Below are positions 3,936 to 23,578 of a DNA stretch of 64,000 nucleotides, one piece after another (the first letter of the stretch is position 1; each line of letters opens with the position of its first letter). Below the pieces are notes generated by a model. It saw nothing but the letters and a program-made list of their open reading frames with translations. It was not told where the DNA came from and made no database searches. The position numbers and the translations under genes are program-made. The stretch covers positions 124,001 to 188,000 of the forward strand of contig NZ_JADOTT010000005.1 in NCBI RefSeq assembly GCF_016817355.1, read 5' to 3'. This DNA is from Maricaulis parjimensis. Lineage in GTDB: Bacteria; Pseudomonadota; Alphaproteobacteria; Caulobacterales; Maricaulaceae.

Positions 3936-4667
3936 TCAGATGTCCAGGTTCAGATACATCGCCGTGAAGGCCAGCGTGTCGACGATGCCGTGGGCCAGGA
4001 TGTTCGGCCAGAGATTGCGCTTGTTGAGCAGGTAGAGCGCACCCAAGGCCAGGCCGATCATGCCGGTCGTAAAGAGGCCCTGGATACCCTGATAATAGGC
4101 ATGGGCGATACCGAAGATGAGGGCCGGGATCAGGATCGAGACGAAGCTGGCCCAGCGGGCGTCCGGCAGGAGCTTGCCGACCCGGTCGATCAGATAACCG
4201 CGGAAGAAGATTTCTTCGCCAAAGGCGGCACTCGTCCAGGCAATCGCCAGCCAGGTGAGATAGACGGGCAGATTGCCCTGGATATTGCCCCAGCGCGCTT
4301 CCACGCCCTCGGCATCCCCCTCAACCGACCAGAAGCCCAGGAAATCGCCCAGATAGGCGGTGCCGGCCCCGATGCCGATAATGGCGATTGTCGCCAGCAG
4401 GCCCTGGGGCAGGATCAGCGGGAAGGACCACCAGCGGCGCAGGCGGCGCAGGCCGAAGCTGGACCAGCTTTCTTTCCGCAAACAGGTGATCACGCCGATC
4501 GTCGCCAGGGTGAAGGCGAGGGAGATCGGTCCGGCATATTTCCAGGCGACCTGGTCGAAGATGAGCTTGGTCGAGATCAGCACGCCCATTACCAGGGCGA
4601 TCTCGAGAATCAGGCCGAGTCGTCCGGGCTGGACGGGCGCGGTCTGGGCGGGGGAGGCAGCAATCAT
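3936..4667 (-). CDS. CPBP-family intramembrane glutamic endopeptidase
   Basis: A 243-residue multi-pass membrane protein of the CPBP (CAAX protease / bacteriocin-processing, ABI) family. The three signature motifs are present: EEIFFRGYL (paired glutamates and Arg), FGIAHAYYQ (F-x-x-x-H), and HGIVDTLAF near the C-terminus (H-x-x-x-D/N). About seven hydrophobic segments can be picked out. Bacterial members cleave unknown peptides within the membrane, and some act in bacteriocin self-immunity. No bacteriocin genes lie here, so the substrate is open. The next upstream gene on the same strand is an AraC-family regulator, which may or may not control it. Confidence 0.88.
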   Translation of the reverse strand: MIAASPAQTAPVQPGRLGLILEIALVMGVLISTKLIFDQVAWKYAGPISLAFTLATIGVITCLRKESWSSFGLRRLRRWWSFPLILPQGLLATIAIIGIGAGTAYLGDFLGFWSVEGDAEGVEARWGNIQGNLPVYLTWLAIAWTSAAFGEEIFFRGYLIDRVGKLLPDARWASFVSILIPALIFGIAHAYYQGIQGLFTTGMIGLALGALYLLNKRNLWPNILAHGIVDTLAFTAMYLNLDI

Positions 4668-4700
4668 GTCTTTTTGTCCTTCAAGGCGCGCGCGGCGCGA

Positions 4701-5525
4701 TCAGTGAAGGACAGTCTGATCCAGGCGGCCCGTCGGGTCTTGAATGATCGTGCGGCGCCATTGGCCCGGCGAGATGCCATAGGCGGCCTTGAACTGGCGC
4801 GTCATGTGGGCCTGGTCGGCAAAACCGGCATCCATGGCGGCATCGGCCAGCCGGTCGCCCGACAGCACGCCAGCCCGCACCCGGTCCAGACGGCGCAGGG
4901 TGAGATAGCGGCCCGGCGAGGTGCCGCGCACGGCCCGGAAGCCACGACATAATTGCCAGCGATCCAGTCCGGTCTCCTGTTCCAGCCTGGCCAGGGAAAT
5001 CCCGTCTTCCAGATGGTCCTCGATCAGCGTGCAGGCGAGATCGACCTGTTCGCGGACAAAGCGCTGCACCGGGGCCGGCGCGTCGCACAAGGCATCCAGC
5101 GCCTGGGCGAGGTCGATCAGGGCGGTTTCGGTTTCCAGCGCGGAGGCGGTGTCCGGCAGGGCGTGCAGTGTCTTCACGGCGCGGACCAGGTCCGCGTCGC
5201 GGCTGATCCCGCCTGGCAGGAAGGGCAGGCCCTGTCCCGGGCGCAGTTTGACCAGCCAGTCCGGACGCAGGGTCACGGCCAGGTAGCCGAACCCGTCTTC
5301 CGTGCCCGGCCGTCCGTCATGCAGCTCGTCCGGATGCAGGACGACAACGCCGCCCGGCTGCGAATGGCGTGTCTCACCGCGATAATCAAAGCTCTGTACG
5401 CCATGCAGCGTCAGCGCCAGCGTGTAGGTGTCATGCCGGTGCGGCGCAAAGGCCGTATCGACCAGTTCCGCGCGGAAACGCTGGAAGGGGCGGTCGGTCG
5501 GCAGGGTTTCGGTCGGCTCGGGCAC
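4701..5525 (-). CDS. AraC-family transcriptional regulator
   Basis: A 274-residue regulator with an N-terminal cupin-type ligand-binding domain (HRHDTYTLALTLHGVQSFDYRG and VVVLHPDELHDGR) and a C-terminal double helix-turn-helix. The HTH region begins near residue 165 with LARLEQETGLDRWQLCRGFR and ends with the family signature DAAMDAGFADQAHMTRQFKA and GISPGQWRR. This belongs to the subgroup that senses small molecules through an AraC_binding domain; the ligand is unknown. It begins with GTG, preceded by GGATGAG. It sits 33 bases upstream of the CPBP protease gene on the same strand, so co-transcription is possible. Confidence 0.92.
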   Translation of the reverse strand: MPEPTETLPTDRPFQRFRAELVDTAFAPHRHDTYTLALTLHGVQSFDYRGETRHSQPGGVVVLHPDELHDGRPGTEDGFGYLAVTLRPDWLVKLRPGQGLPFLPGGISRDADLVRAVKTLHALPDTASALETETALIDLAQALDALCDAPAPVQRFVREQVDLACTLIEDHLEDGISLARLEQETGLDRWQLCRGFRAVRGTSPGRYLTLRRLDRVRAGVLSGDRLADAAMDAGFADQAHMTRQFKAAYGISPGQWRRTIIQDPTGRLDQTVLH

Positions 5526-5609
5526 GTCTCATCCATTCGCTGTGAGCAGCTTAGATGATCGGCAGACCGTGTTTGGATGCAATCGGGATGCTGTTCCGTG
5601 CAGTCCCGC

Positions 5610-6509
5610 CTAGGGCCACTTCGCCTCGGGCGGCATGGAGGACAGGATGGATTTCACATTCCCGCCGGTCTCCAGACCGAATTTCGTGCCGCGGTCATAG
5701 AGGAGGTTGAACTCGGCATAGCGGCCGCGGCGCACGAGTTGTTCCTCACGGTCCTCCGGCGTCCAGGTCTCGCCCATGCGGCGGCGGACCAGCATGGGAT
5801 AGGTTTTCAGGAAAGCCAGGCCGACATCGCGGGTGAAGGCGAAATCCGTATCCCACTCGCCGGTATTGTGGCGGTCGTAGAAAATCCCGCCAATGCCGCG
5901 CGGCTCGTCGCGGTGGGGCAGGTAGAAATACTCGTCACACCAGGCCTTGAACCGGGCGTGGAAATCCTTGCCATGCTGGTCGCACACCGTTTTGCAGGCG
6001 GCGTGGAAATCCTTCGCATCGGGATGATCCTGGGTGCGGGCCCGGTCGAGCACGGGCGTCAGGTCCATCCCGCCTCCGAACCACCACTGGGTCGTGGTGA
6101 TGAAGCGCGTATTCATGTGAACGGCCGGGACATGCGGGTTCCACATGTGGGCAATCAGGGAAATCCCGGTGGCAACGAAGCGCGGATCTTCGGCGGCCCC
6201 GGGGATCTGCTTGCGGAATTGTTCGGAGAACTCACCCTTCACCGCCGAGACGTGGACACCAACCTTCTCGAACAAGCGGCCCTTCATCAGCCCCATCGTG
6301 CCGCCGCCTTCATCCTTGGACCCGTCACCCCGTTTCCAGTCCTCGAAGGTGAATTTGCCCGGCTCACCGCCATAGAGATGGGCGGGGGCCTCGGCTTCCA
6401 GCGCTTCGAATTCGGCACAGATCTGGTCGCGCAGATCCTCGAACCAGGCCTGGGCGGACTGGCATTGCAGGTCAGAGCCTGCGGCGGCGGGTTTGGATGA
6501 AGTCGTCAT
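5610..6509 (-). CDS. hemF: Oxygen-dependent coproporphyrinogen III oxidase
   Basis: A 299-residue aerobic coproporphyrinogen oxidase that converts coproporphyrinogen III to protoporphyrinogen IX using O2 in haem synthesis. Family blocks are clear: [51 protein letters not shown] and [19 protein letters not shown], the last two near the C-terminus. The frame stays open upstream to 6668, but the ATG at 6509 ([11 protein letters not shown]) gives the usual family length. It lies next to the bc1 complex operon, whose cytochromes need haem, though on the opposite strand and separated by trmL. Confidence 0.95.
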
Positions 6510-20604: not shown

Positions 20605-21042
20605 CTACTCGTAGGGAGAGTAGAATAGATGCATCTGGAAGCTCTGTCCGATGCGCTGTGCCCGGGCGAGGAAGGCCGCGTGCGCCGCCTCACTGGCCCC
20701 GATCTCCGACAGGGTTTGCTCGAACAGTTTCAGCCAGCGGGTGAAGTGGTCCGGCGAGATATCCGCCTTGATCTTCATGTGCGCCGGCATGGGTCGTCCC
20801 GAATAGCCGCCATCATGAAAGACAATGGAGGACCAGAAGCGCTTCATCGTTGCCAGGTGCGGATCCCAGTCGCCGGCCACGGCCTTCTCAAAGACCGGGC
20901 CGAGCATCGCGTCGTCCCGGACATGCCCGTAGAAGGTCTCGACCAGGTCGGAAATCAGTGCCGGCGTGATCCCCATTTCTGCAGCTTCCGCACGGGCGGC
21001 TGCCCGCGCTTCGGTTTCACGCAAGGGCGTAGGGGAGGACAC
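20605..21042 (-). CDS. Group III truncated haemoglobin
   Basis: A 145-residue truncated globin of group III (TrHbP/Ctb type). Features are LVETFYGHVRDDAMLGPVFEKAV (helices B-C), HLATMKRFWSSIVF (E helix), the YSGRPMPAHMKI segment typical of group III, and HFTRWLKLFEQTL with the proximal histidine region. Campylobacter Ctb modulates oxygen and NO handling; the role here is inferred only. It starts with GTG 12 bases after the ychF stop, and its AGGAC Shine-Dalgarno overlaps the ychF end, so the two are likely co-transcribed. Confidence 0.9.
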   Translation of the reverse strand: MSSPTPLRETEARAAARAEAAEMGITPALISDLVETFYGHVRDDAMLGPVFEKAVAGDWDPHLATMKRFWSSIVFHDGGYSGRPMPAHMKIKADISPDHFTRWLKLFEQTLSEIGASEAAHAAFLARAQRIGQSFQMHLFYSPYE

Positions 21043-22155: not shown

Positions 22156-22507
22156 GGCGCTAAATCCCTCGTGTGTTGAGCGCCGCCTTATAGGGATTTT
22201 GAACGCCGGGGTCGACTGTCCTGTCAGTGGCTCCGGCTCCCGGGGATGCGGACTTGAGGGGGCGAGCAATCCCGGGAACCGGAGACCGAAGCGCCGGGTG
22301 ATGGACAGATCCCCGGTGCCCCACCGGCAACAGGCCGGTCCTGAACATCCCATTCCCGCCAGCCCCGGAATATCCGGACAGGACAGCCAACCGGCCCGGT
22401 CGTCGGGCAGGCGAGGGAGCCGGTTGTGACCGGCGGTGCAGGGGTGTGAGTGGGCTCGCCGGGAAGGGACAGCCGGCGAGCCGATGAACCTGACGTCCGT
22501 CGGGGGA
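22156..22507. other. Non-coding gap between ychF and the Met/Asp-repeat gene
   Basis: About 350 bases without a supported gene. It must hold the ychF promoter. Several short GC-rich inverted repeats are present (for example around CCGGTGCCCCACCGG), and the best hairpin, at 22453-22482, is listed separately. Open frames here have no ribosome-binding site or family match. Confidence 0.5.
22453..22482 (-). terminator. Hairpin downstream of the Met/Asp-repeat gene
   Basis: A perfect 10-bp stem, GGCTCGCCGG / CCGGCGAGCC with a 10-nt loop, starts 25 bases past the stop codon of the leftward Met/Asp-repeat gene. No T-tract follows on the minus strand, so it is a weak or protective 3' hairpin rather than a classical terminator. 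Confidence 0.45.
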
Positions 22508-22855
22508 TTACAGGGCTGCCGGCGCGGCCTTCAGGCCTTTGCGGCGGCCACGCGTCGGGTCGTCCGAGTTCATCATGCTGTTGTCGTCATGCATCATGTC
22601 CTCATCGGACATCATGGCGTCGTCCGCCATCATGGCGTCGTCGTCCGACATCATCGTATCGTCCGACATCATCATGTCGTCGGACATCATTTTGTCGTCG
22701 TCCATCATCATGGAGTCATCGTCCATCATGTGGTCGTCGGACATCATGGAATCGTCGTCCTGCATCATCGTGTCCTGTTGCAGGGCGAGGGCGGGCAGGG
22801 CGATGCCGGCGGCAAGGCTGGCGGCAATCAGGCTCTGGCTGAAAAGGCGTGGCAT
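22508..22855 (-). CDS. Exported Met/Asp-rich repeat protein
   Basis: A 115-residue protein. Residues 1-25 form a signal peptide ([17 protein letters not shown]). Residues 29-99 are about eleven degenerate six- or seven-residue units of the form x-M-M-x-D-D-(D), and a basic tail follows (TRGRRKGLK). The ATG at 22855 has GGGAGAC upstream. Methionine-pair clusters mixed with aspartates are typical of periplasmic metal-binding peptides (copper(I) by Met thioethers, other cations by carboxylates), and small 'pentapeptide MxKDx repeat' exported proteins are a known, poorly studied relative. A metal-buffering role is my inference. The mature chain looks intrinsically disordered. It is monocistronic. 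Confidence 0.7.
22559..22771 (-). repeat. In-frame MMxDD tandem repeat tract
   Basis: About eleven imperfect 18- or 21-bp units built on ATGATG-NNN-GACGAC encode the Met/Asp repeats. Units differ at the third base and in the variable residue (S, H, K, T, A), so the repeat is old or selected at protein level rather than a fresh slippage expansion. The strand complement yields a meaningless His/Val-rich frame. Confidence 0.8.
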
Positions 22856-22972
22856 GGCAGTGTCTCCCGTGGTTTTGACGGGAGAAGGAATGCGCGGGCC
22901 AGTCCCCTTTTACCAATCAACTCGCCGCACGGAGCGATGCCGGGTTTTCACTGTGGTGTGAGGGCGGCGCGA

Positions 22973-23578
22973 TCAGTCCGCGTCAGGCCGTCCACGCTTG
23001 ATCACCTCAGGCGCCGGGGCCTTGTGGGTGACGCGGGTCTGGAAGGCGTCGACATCGCCACTGGCCAGCAGATCGACGGAATCGGCGATGGCGTCCAGCA
23101 GGTCGATCAGCCAGCTCTCTTCTGCCTTGGCGAAATCGGACAGGACATAGCCGGTCACCCGGTTGCGGTCGCCGGGATGGCCGACGCCGATGCGGGCGCG
23201 GCGGAAATCCGGGCCGATCTGCGAGGTGACGGACTTGATGCCATTATTGCCGGCCGCGCCGCCGCCCAACTTCATGCGGAACTTGCCCGGCGCCAGATCC
23301 AGCTCGTCATGGAAGACGACGACATTCTTGGGCTCGACCTTGTAGAAATTCGCAGCCTCGCCCACGGCATGGCCGGAATTATTGTAGAAGGTCTGCGGCT
23401 TGAGCAGGAGGAGCTTGTTGGAGCCGACAGTCAGCTCACAGGCCAGTGACTGGAAGCGCTTGCGCCAGGGACCGGCACTCCAGGCCTGGGCGATGACATC
23501 CATCGCCATGAAGCCGACATTGTGGCGGTTCTTCAGATATTTCGGCTCGCAATTGCCGAGCCCGGCCAGGATCATCAT
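22973..23578 (-). CDS. pth: Peptidyl-tRNA hydrolase
   Basis: A 201-residue Pth that frees tRNA from prematurely released peptidyl-tRNA. It begins MMILAGLGNCEPKYLKNRHN with the catalytic His in RHNVGF, followed by PQTFYNNSGHAVGE, FHDELDLAPGKFRMKLGGGA and NNGIKSV, all family hallmarks. GLGNCE replaces the common GLGNPG, a small oddity at a conserved glycine-loop position. It lies downstream of rplY, a common bacterial pairing, but a terminator sits between them. Confidence 0.95.
   Translation of the reverse strand: MMILAGLGNCEPKYLKNRHNVGFMAMDVIAQAWSAGPWRKRFQSLACELTVGSNKLLLLKPQTFYNNSGHAVGEAANFYKVEPKNVVVFHDELDLAPGKFRMKLGGGAAGNNGIKSVTSQIGPDFRRARIGVGHPGDRNRVTGYVLSDFAKAEESWLIDLLDAIADSVDLLASGDVDAFQTRVTHKAPAPEVIKRGRPDAD

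Follow-up and report, generated by a model that had tools for sequence, protein, structure and literature searches.

Introduction

Proteins of the family TIGR02953 are small and carry a signal peptide and methionine and aspartate repeats. In Brucella melitensis, the gene bcrX, coding for a methionine-rich MXKDX protein, is reported to share a transcript with msrPQ homologues; HOCl induces it, and an ECF16 sigma factor acts as its activator. BcrX is proposed there, like MrpX of Azospira, as a possible sacrificial sink (PMC8315932). For perchlorate islands, sigF/nrsF, yedYZ and mrpX are described as forming a methionine cycle in the periplasm that counters hypochlorite, and two islands are reported with predicted exported MsrA/MsrB homologues (PMC4623255). 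A preliminary description of the locus considered here had called exported MxKDx repeats known and hardly studied. The second half of this statement is partly outdated, since the Brucella MXKDX protein and MrpX are both discussed as hypochlorite scavengers in these accounts (PMC8315932, PMC4623255).

Methionine-rich exported proteins have also been linked to metals. SilE is described as a disordered Ag+ sponge with His and Met as ligands (10 His, 10 Met); ten conserved His are reported for both SilE and PcoE, and the SilE gene is placed in the sil operon (PMC5008109). According to the published accounts, copper likewise induces E. coli MsrPQ, which protects the copper chaperone CusF (PMC9302797), and in Caulobacter dichromate induces the YedY/MsrP gene CC2748, in part via SigF (PMC3511200). 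In view of these reports, a link of a protein to methionine sulfoxide reductase (Msr) genes is compatible with a role in metals.

A Maricaulis gene for a methionine- and aspartate-rich repeat protein was compared with these systems. It was analyzed within a 64-kb window, by which the whole stretch of DNA under analysis is meant. In the reading that we favor, and for which the chances appear evenly balanced, the protein is a methionine redox sponge that is sacrificial for bleach-like oxidants.

Genomic context of the gene

The gene lies on the minus strand, and both of its immediate neighbors, pth and ychF, are housekeeping genes. The features of the locus are as follows.

22973-23578, minus strand: pth, aminoacyl-tRNA hydrolase, upstream neighbor, outside the system (TIGR00447, 182.3 bits)
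22856-22972, minus strand: upstream region of 117 nt that separates the gene from pth and includes conserved blocks shared by three species
22863-22885, minus strand: hairpin with two 8-nt arms (22863-22870 and 22878-22885), assessed by folding z scores
22508-22855, minus strand: coding sequence, 115 aa plus stop, ATG start, taken from the ORF list, with orthologues in loci L006 and L007
21055-22152, minus strand: ychF, downstream neighbor, outside the system (TIGR00092, 491 bits)

Upstream of the gene, neither an ECF16-type promoter (GTAA-N14-21-CGAA) nor a sigma-70-type consensus was found, and no intrinsic terminator was detected at the gene. The hairpin covers the likely Shine-Dalgarno sequence GGGAG (22864-22868). 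Its folding yielded z scores of -3.35 for 61 nt and -0.92 for 133 nt, with values of -1.81 and -0.84 for the hairpins of the orthologues; a C/T difference present in both orthologues retains the pairing as G-U. As evidence for translational control, the hairpin is weak.

Two further elements were noted on the downstream side. A ten-base perfect inverted repeat (GGCTCGCCGG / CCGGCGAGCC; loop 10, without a U-run) is located at 22453-22482, in a stretch missing from both orthologues, and a truncated-haemoglobin-like protein (PF01152, 19 bits, below the cut-off of 21) is encoded on the minus strand at 20605-21042.

The array is also covered by an overlapping plus-strand frame (22436-23449), which is open across 337 codons and has a comparable open counterpart in the orthologous gaps. 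The true gene could accordingly be this plus-strand ORF, with the array read as His-His-x-Val-Val, an explanation that we consider highly improbable. Long frames occur frequently on either strand of the window (122 of at least 150 aa in 64 kb), and no signal peptide was recognized by eye in the plus-strand product. Moreover, in the sense frame the third position shows the highest counts of differences between orthologues (26, 22 and 19 versus 21/14, 18/14 and 9/8). The plus-strand ORF probably arises as a side effect of the ATG/GAC repeats.

Architecture of the protein

The minus-strand gene codes for a small, probably exported protein, composed of three parts.

22784-22855, minus strand: signal peptide (residues 1-24) with cleavage predicted after ALA, recognized by eye and identical in three orthologues
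22559-22768, minus strand: MM(x)DD array of 11 units, residues 30-99, defined from the sequence and from repeat and doublet counts
22511-22558, minus strand: basic C-terminal tail, residues 100-115 (PTxxRRKxxKA...), partly conserved in the three orthologues

The predicted signal peptide ends in an x-A pattern, as judged by eye, in agreement with the export assumed in the preliminary description. The same description had placed about 70 of the 90 residues after the signal peptide in repeats, which corresponds to the array at residues 30-99. Its count of eleven MMxDD units holds for the Met-Met doublets, of which the sequence contains 11, while strict MMxDD units number only nine, the remaining two being MMSDE and MMNSDD. 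Overlapping counting yields 10 MMxDD, because MMMDDD scores twice.

Consecutive doublets are spaced by 7, 6, 6, 7, 5, 7, 7, 6, 6 and 7 residues. With distances of 5-7, mostly 6 or 7, the unit is therefore mostly a hexa- or heptapeptide, and the name "pentapeptide" was rejected as wrong for doublets mostly 6 or 7 residues apart.

The 70 residues of the array include 24 Met, 26 Asp and a single Lys, and the mature part (residues 26-115) contains 27 Asp and 24 Met among 90 residues, with two His and no Cys. A pI of 4.05 and a charge of about -22 at pH 7 were computed for the mature protein. When the mature sequence was shuffled 100,000 times, 11 or more MM doublets were never reached, the maximum being 10. 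At the DNA level, the array was visible to Tandem Repeats Finder at 22571-22768, with a period of 57 and 74% matches.

AlphaFold2, run on a three-row alignment, gave a mean pLDDT of 55.3 and an array without regular structure. This fits a disordered chain, as far as a model of low confidence, built on a shallow alignment, can indicate. A sequence search of PDB gave no match, and no match of note for the protein was obtained from Pfam, NCBIfam or PDB. DUF2613 (Pfam, E 0.085) and RNase E (NCBIfam, E 3.1) were both below the cut-off and were taken as low-complexity noise.

Distribution among Maricaulis genomes

The whole-genome protein search located the gene in 3 of 19 Maricaulis genomes, its own included. 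Four rows were obtained in the genus at E <= 0.001, namely the gene itself, G001, G006 and G013. The orthologues in G001 and G006 are 75% and 77% identical, respectively; the remaining 16 of the 19 genomes searched yielded no orthologue. G013 (locus L005; E 9e-4, 38% identity) was rejected as an orthologue, being a DDTALS-type frame without Met, and G396 (L105), from the search of the order, was likewise rejected, being a D/E/S-rich frame without Met.

All three copies are situated between pth and ychF. Across 85 loci, ORFs of at least 40 aa with at least four MM were present only at the window gene and its two orthologues. In other relatives carrying both pth and ychF, the gap was short or filled by other sequence. 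Given this and the presence in 3 of 19 genomes, the gene is restricted to a few species and probably young. Searches of plasmids for the gene found nothing.

The gap itself was occupied by other genes elsewhere. In L014 (gap 4597-5302) it contains a DM13-domain protein. L021 belongs to a Maricaulis MAG that is more distant, and its gap (4582-5701) codes for an acidic EF-hand protein of small size. Both proteins have a signal peptide recognized by eye. The pth-ychF slot looks as if it repeatedly took up unrelated, lineage-specific exported cargo.

Conservation of the repeat

The numbers of doublets in the three orthologues are 11, 12 and 10, which provides the comparison of repeat number among relatives that had been proposed for this protein. 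Counting the stop codon, the corresponding genes measure 348, 369 and 339 nt. As the length differences are all multiples of three, all changes are in frame, and repeat number changing out of frame, named in the preliminary description as an observation against its reading, was thus not seen across the three orthologues. Residues 1-24, the signal peptide, show no difference among them.

In the alignment of the three species, 82 gap-free columns after residue 27 were evaluated. Met was the most conserved class, with 20 of 23 columns invariant versus 18 of 31 for D/E and 13 of 28 for other residues, which speaks for the methionine redox sponge. The three varying Met columns, read from the alignment, are extra Mets outside the doublets, and D and E are swapped between species.

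Substitution rates were estimated by two methods. NG86 gave dN/dS values of 0.378, 0.335 and 0.256 for the whole gene, and 0.272, 0.302 and 0.266 for the repeat with the tail. YN00 was computable for one pair, yielding 0.347 for the whole gene and 0.663 for the repeat with the tail.

Differences in Met codons were below expectation at third positions (P 0.0004, 0.0025 and 0.0020) and, less clearly, at positions 1 and 2 (P 0.071, 0.138 and 0.006); these P values are generous, because the alignment stacks Mets and the Met codon has no silent third position. The sequence comparison thus supports constraint on the MM/DD pattern. Selection on the pattern, rather than mere slippage, had been claimed previously, and the invariant Met columns together with the NG86 values of 0.26-0.38 bear this out. 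A lack of conservation in close relatives, which the same description had named as speaking against its reading, is not what was found: two close species keep the pattern, and no orthologue was detected in 16 of the 19 genomes searched.

These data also concern two other explanations. The first is an acidic cation buffer or surface polymer, in which hard cations such as Ca2+ or Mg2+ are bound by the 27 Asp, or the envelope is kept hydrated by them, and Met serves as non-polar filler. The charge of about -22 is in line with it, as is the small acidic EF-hand protein encoded in the pth-ychF gap of L021. It is disfavored by the better conservation of the Met columns relative to D/E (20/23 vs 18/31) and by the D/E exchange between species, and we rate it as quite improbable.

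The second explanation is a lineage-specific protein of little function, that is, a repeat expansion captured behind a signal peptide under weak constraint. Occurrence in only 3 of 19 genomes of the genus, the lack of a match of note in Pfam, NCBIfam or PDB, and the YN00 value of 0.66 in the repeat for one computable pair would agree with this. Indels that occur only in frame, identical residues 1-24, NG86 values of 0.26-0.38 over the whole gene and the conserved upstream blocks argue against it, so that it likewise appears quite improbable, if anything slightly more so.

Similar methionine-repeat proteins in other bacteria

Proteins of similar design were searched for in samples of the phylum and of classes, which were thin draws with one genome per species and at most 400 genomes. 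A two-unit MMx(D/E)(D/E) pattern was found in 4 of 398 phylum genomes (the host's own, G765, G473 and G509), in 2 of 74 genomes of the family of G473 (G473 and G509) and in 2 of 369 genomes of the class of G765 (G765 and G828). A looser three-unit MMx(D/E) pattern was present in 3 of 367 genomes of the host's class, namely its own, G1205 and G1212.

The protein of G765 has a signal peptide (by eye) and MMEEE/MMSDD units. Its gene is followed by those for a cytochrome b561 (PF01292) and a molybdopterin oxidoreductase (PF00174) that scored 102 bits with the NCBIfam MsrP model, below the cut-off of 207, and a two-component system lies on the other side. In G473, the gene for an MMKDD lipoprotein (by eye) adjoins an MsrA-MsrB fusion (PF01625, PF01641) and also a two-component system. 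A system of the same kind adjoins the MMKDD lipoprotein gene of G509, which lies at a contig end; as both genomes belong to one genus, G473 and G509 are not fully independent.

G828 encodes an MMKDD lipoprotein without an Msr match in 6 kb, one flank comprising 645 bases of contig. In G1205, MMDDDD units form the tail of an LTXXQ-family lipoprotein, which fits the same design, and in G1212 a short MMHDGMMGDGMM membrane peptide adjoins DUF411. Contexts with LTXXQ proteins or DUF411 are associated with envelope stress and metals.

A neighbor of the sulfoxide-reductase type was thus found in 2 of 6 look-alike genomes (G765 and G473), which are small numbers. No Msr match was found in the 6-10 kb covered at the genes of G509, G828, G1205, G1212 and the MXKDX genomes G152 and G030 (9-10 kb for the last two). 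Three Msr-type tblastn queries matched none of 80 pth loci (641 kb). The tblastn matches of the positive loci themselves are circular, because the host and two such loci had supplied the queries; the family scans of the neighbors (PF01292, PF00174, PF01625, PF01641) are independent of this control. Linkage of such Met proteins to sulfoxide reductases is not general.

In the host's order, TIGR02953 was matched in 3 of 299 genomes at E <= 1e-4 (G251, G152 and G030), the cut-off being exceeded in one of them, G030. The gene for the MXKDX-like protein of G251 is followed by genes for a cytochrome b561, a PF00174 protein and an ECF sigma factor. Directly upstream of it lies a DUF1223 gene (L259, 3074-3799, plus strand), and a DUF1223-like protein (by eye) is encoded near the MXKDX gene of G030 (L253, 1788-2585, minus strand).

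A viral pattern scan gave at least 120 stretches; four of those listed contained ORFs of 50-299 aa with five or more MM, and none of these resembled an exported MMxDD protein by eye. No account of an MMxDD or methionine-aspartate repeat was found in the literature searched, subscription journals being mostly outside its scope, and publications on Maricaulis and methionine included, as judged by title, none on such a protein.

The neighboring regulators bear on the question of metals. Against the heavy-metal model TIGR01387 (cut-off 279.2), the response regulators of G473, G509 and G765 scored 180.6, 186.4 and 173 bits, respectively, and they reached no cut-off among the models listed, the best of which, MtrA, was also not reached. 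At the loci L248, L249 and L250, from three genomes, the two-component systems adjoining the MMKDD/MMEEE proteins are of the OmpR type and scored below the heavy-metal model and the other cut-offs listed.

As a soft-metal sponge, the protein would hold periplasmic Cu(I) or Ag(I) with its Met doublets, as in SilE/PcoE or CusF, and Asp would provide secondary ligands. Participation of Met in Ag+ or Cu(I) binding is reported for SilE and CusF (PMC5008109, PMC9302797), SilE is described as disordered when free (PMC5008109) in parallel to the Maricaulis array without predicted structure, MsrPQ itself is reported to serve copper tolerance in E. coli (PMC9302797), and the membrane peptide of G1212 adjoins DUF411. 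Since Met can bind both metals and the Msr linkage is compatible with copper, copper or silver binding is a live rival. The immediate neighbors pth and ychF, the two His and absent Cys of the mature protein, and regulators of G473, G509 and G765 that lie below the heavy-metal cut-off count against it, although these regulators also reached none of the other cut-offs listed. We regard it as unlikely, and metal binding is not the best-supported reading.

Methionine sulfoxide repair genes in the host

The host genome encodes an MsrP (447 bits, cut-off 207), with an adjacent MsrQ-like gene that matches PF01794 and scored 113 bits, below the MsrQ cut-off of 130; against MamZ the latter reached 143 bits (cut-off 650). 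A PF01641 (MsrB) gene is also present. MsrP was found above the cut-off in all 19 genomes of the genus. The msrP gene and the repeat gene are located on different contigs (G000:C12 and G000:C13, respectively) and show no linkage. NrsF was found in 2 of the 19 genomes of the genus and was not found in the host genome.

Proposed function

The predicted exported, disordered and Met-dominated design, together with the sulfoxide-reductase neighbors of some look-alikes, is the reason why the methionine redox sponge is favored. Weighing against it are the missing linkage to msrP, the failure to find NrsF in the host, an ECF16-type motif upstream or a TIGR02953 match, the look-alikes without an Msr match, the contexts of G1205 and G1212, the less clear P values at codon positions 1 and 2, and the YN00 value of 0.66 in the repeat for one pair. 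The chain would be periplasmic or released, as the signal peptide recognized by eye suggests, and intrinsically disordered according to the low-confidence model. Its paired, exposed Met side chains would be oxidized to methionine sulfoxide before the envelope proteins, presumably by hypohalous acids and related oxidants, and the Asp residues would make for a soluble, extended and acidic chain. Re-reduction of the Mets could then fall to a periplasmic methionine sulfoxide reductase, for which the chromosomal MsrP, unlinked to the gene, and its MsrQ-like partner are the likeliest candidates. By analogy with what is described for MrpX and proposed for BcrX, the protein would constitute a renewable redox buffer.

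A more specific form of this proposal is a young, acidic, paired-Met redox buffer that has no operon of its own, depends on housekeeping MsrP in trans and is perhaps directed against hypohalites of the phycosphere. Taken together with the MMKDD/MMEEE proteins, it would mean a repeated, convergent origin of such sponges where a periplasmic sulfoxide reductase is available. In this form we hold it as tentative and rather unlikely. Algae release hypohalites in the phycosphere, and M. alexandrii was reportedly described from the marine phycosphere. Among the papers listed on phycosphere hypohalites, none dealt directly, by title, with algal release.

If the sponge reading is true, scavenging of bleach-like oxidants by Met peptides would extend to marine bacteria of a lineage that includes a member from the phycosphere, and an acidic form of Met scavenger would have been overlooked by the existing family model. 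It would also offer a simple natural setting in which to ask whether oxidant resistance can be conferred by a low-complexity Met array alone, with MsrP encoded elsewhere in the genome.

Comparison with known systems

SilE is Met-rich and described as disordered when free, in which it resembles the Maricaulis protein, whose array has no predicted structure. The latter differs from SilE and PcoE, as these are described, in having two His in its mature form and pth and ychF as neighbors instead of a sil or pco operon (PMC5008109).

In relation to TIGR02953 (penta_MxKDx), the unit of the Maricaulis protein is not five residues with Lys, as the doublets are mostly 6 or 7 residues apart and a single Lys occurs in the array. 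Neither the window protein nor the M. alexandrii orthologue matched the model (cut-off 41 bits), and no match at E <= 1 was obtained in the host genome. The MM-repeat proteins of G473 and G765 matched weakly, with 22.9 and 24.6 bits against the same cut-off of 41.

BcrX of Brucella shares with the Maricaulis protein the Met and Asp repeats and an msrP-type gene in the genome. It is characterized by the MXKDX unit of its name (five residues with Lys), the bcrXQP operon and ECF16 sigma control (PMC8315932), whereas the Maricaulis protein has an MMxDD(D)x unit of mostly 6-7 residues, is strongly acidic and lacks the ECF16 motif; this separation follows the published description and the name of the Brucella repeat.

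Of the traits that define the MrpX/BcrX group, a Met-rich repeat peptide is present (24 of 90 mature residues are Met, with export recognized by eye), as is MsrP in the genome, with an adjacent MsrQ-like gene below the cut-off. Linkage to msrPQ/yedYZ and SigF/NrsF (ECF16) control through a (T/C)GTAAC-N17-CGAA promoter were not found at this locus. Having neither msrP linkage, NrsF, the ECF16 motif nor a TIGR02953 match, the protein was therefore not filed as a member.

The mrpX gene is described as accompanied by yedYZ and sigF/nrsF (PMC4623255), in contrast to the unlinked Maricaulis gene, in whose genome NrsF was not found. Compared through published descriptions, MrpX of Azospira suillum and the Maricaulis protein are both Met-rich peptides of the periplasm, by prediction in the latter case, with an MsrP-type reductase in the genome (PMC8315932, PMC4623255), and the Maricaulis protein may work like MrpX.
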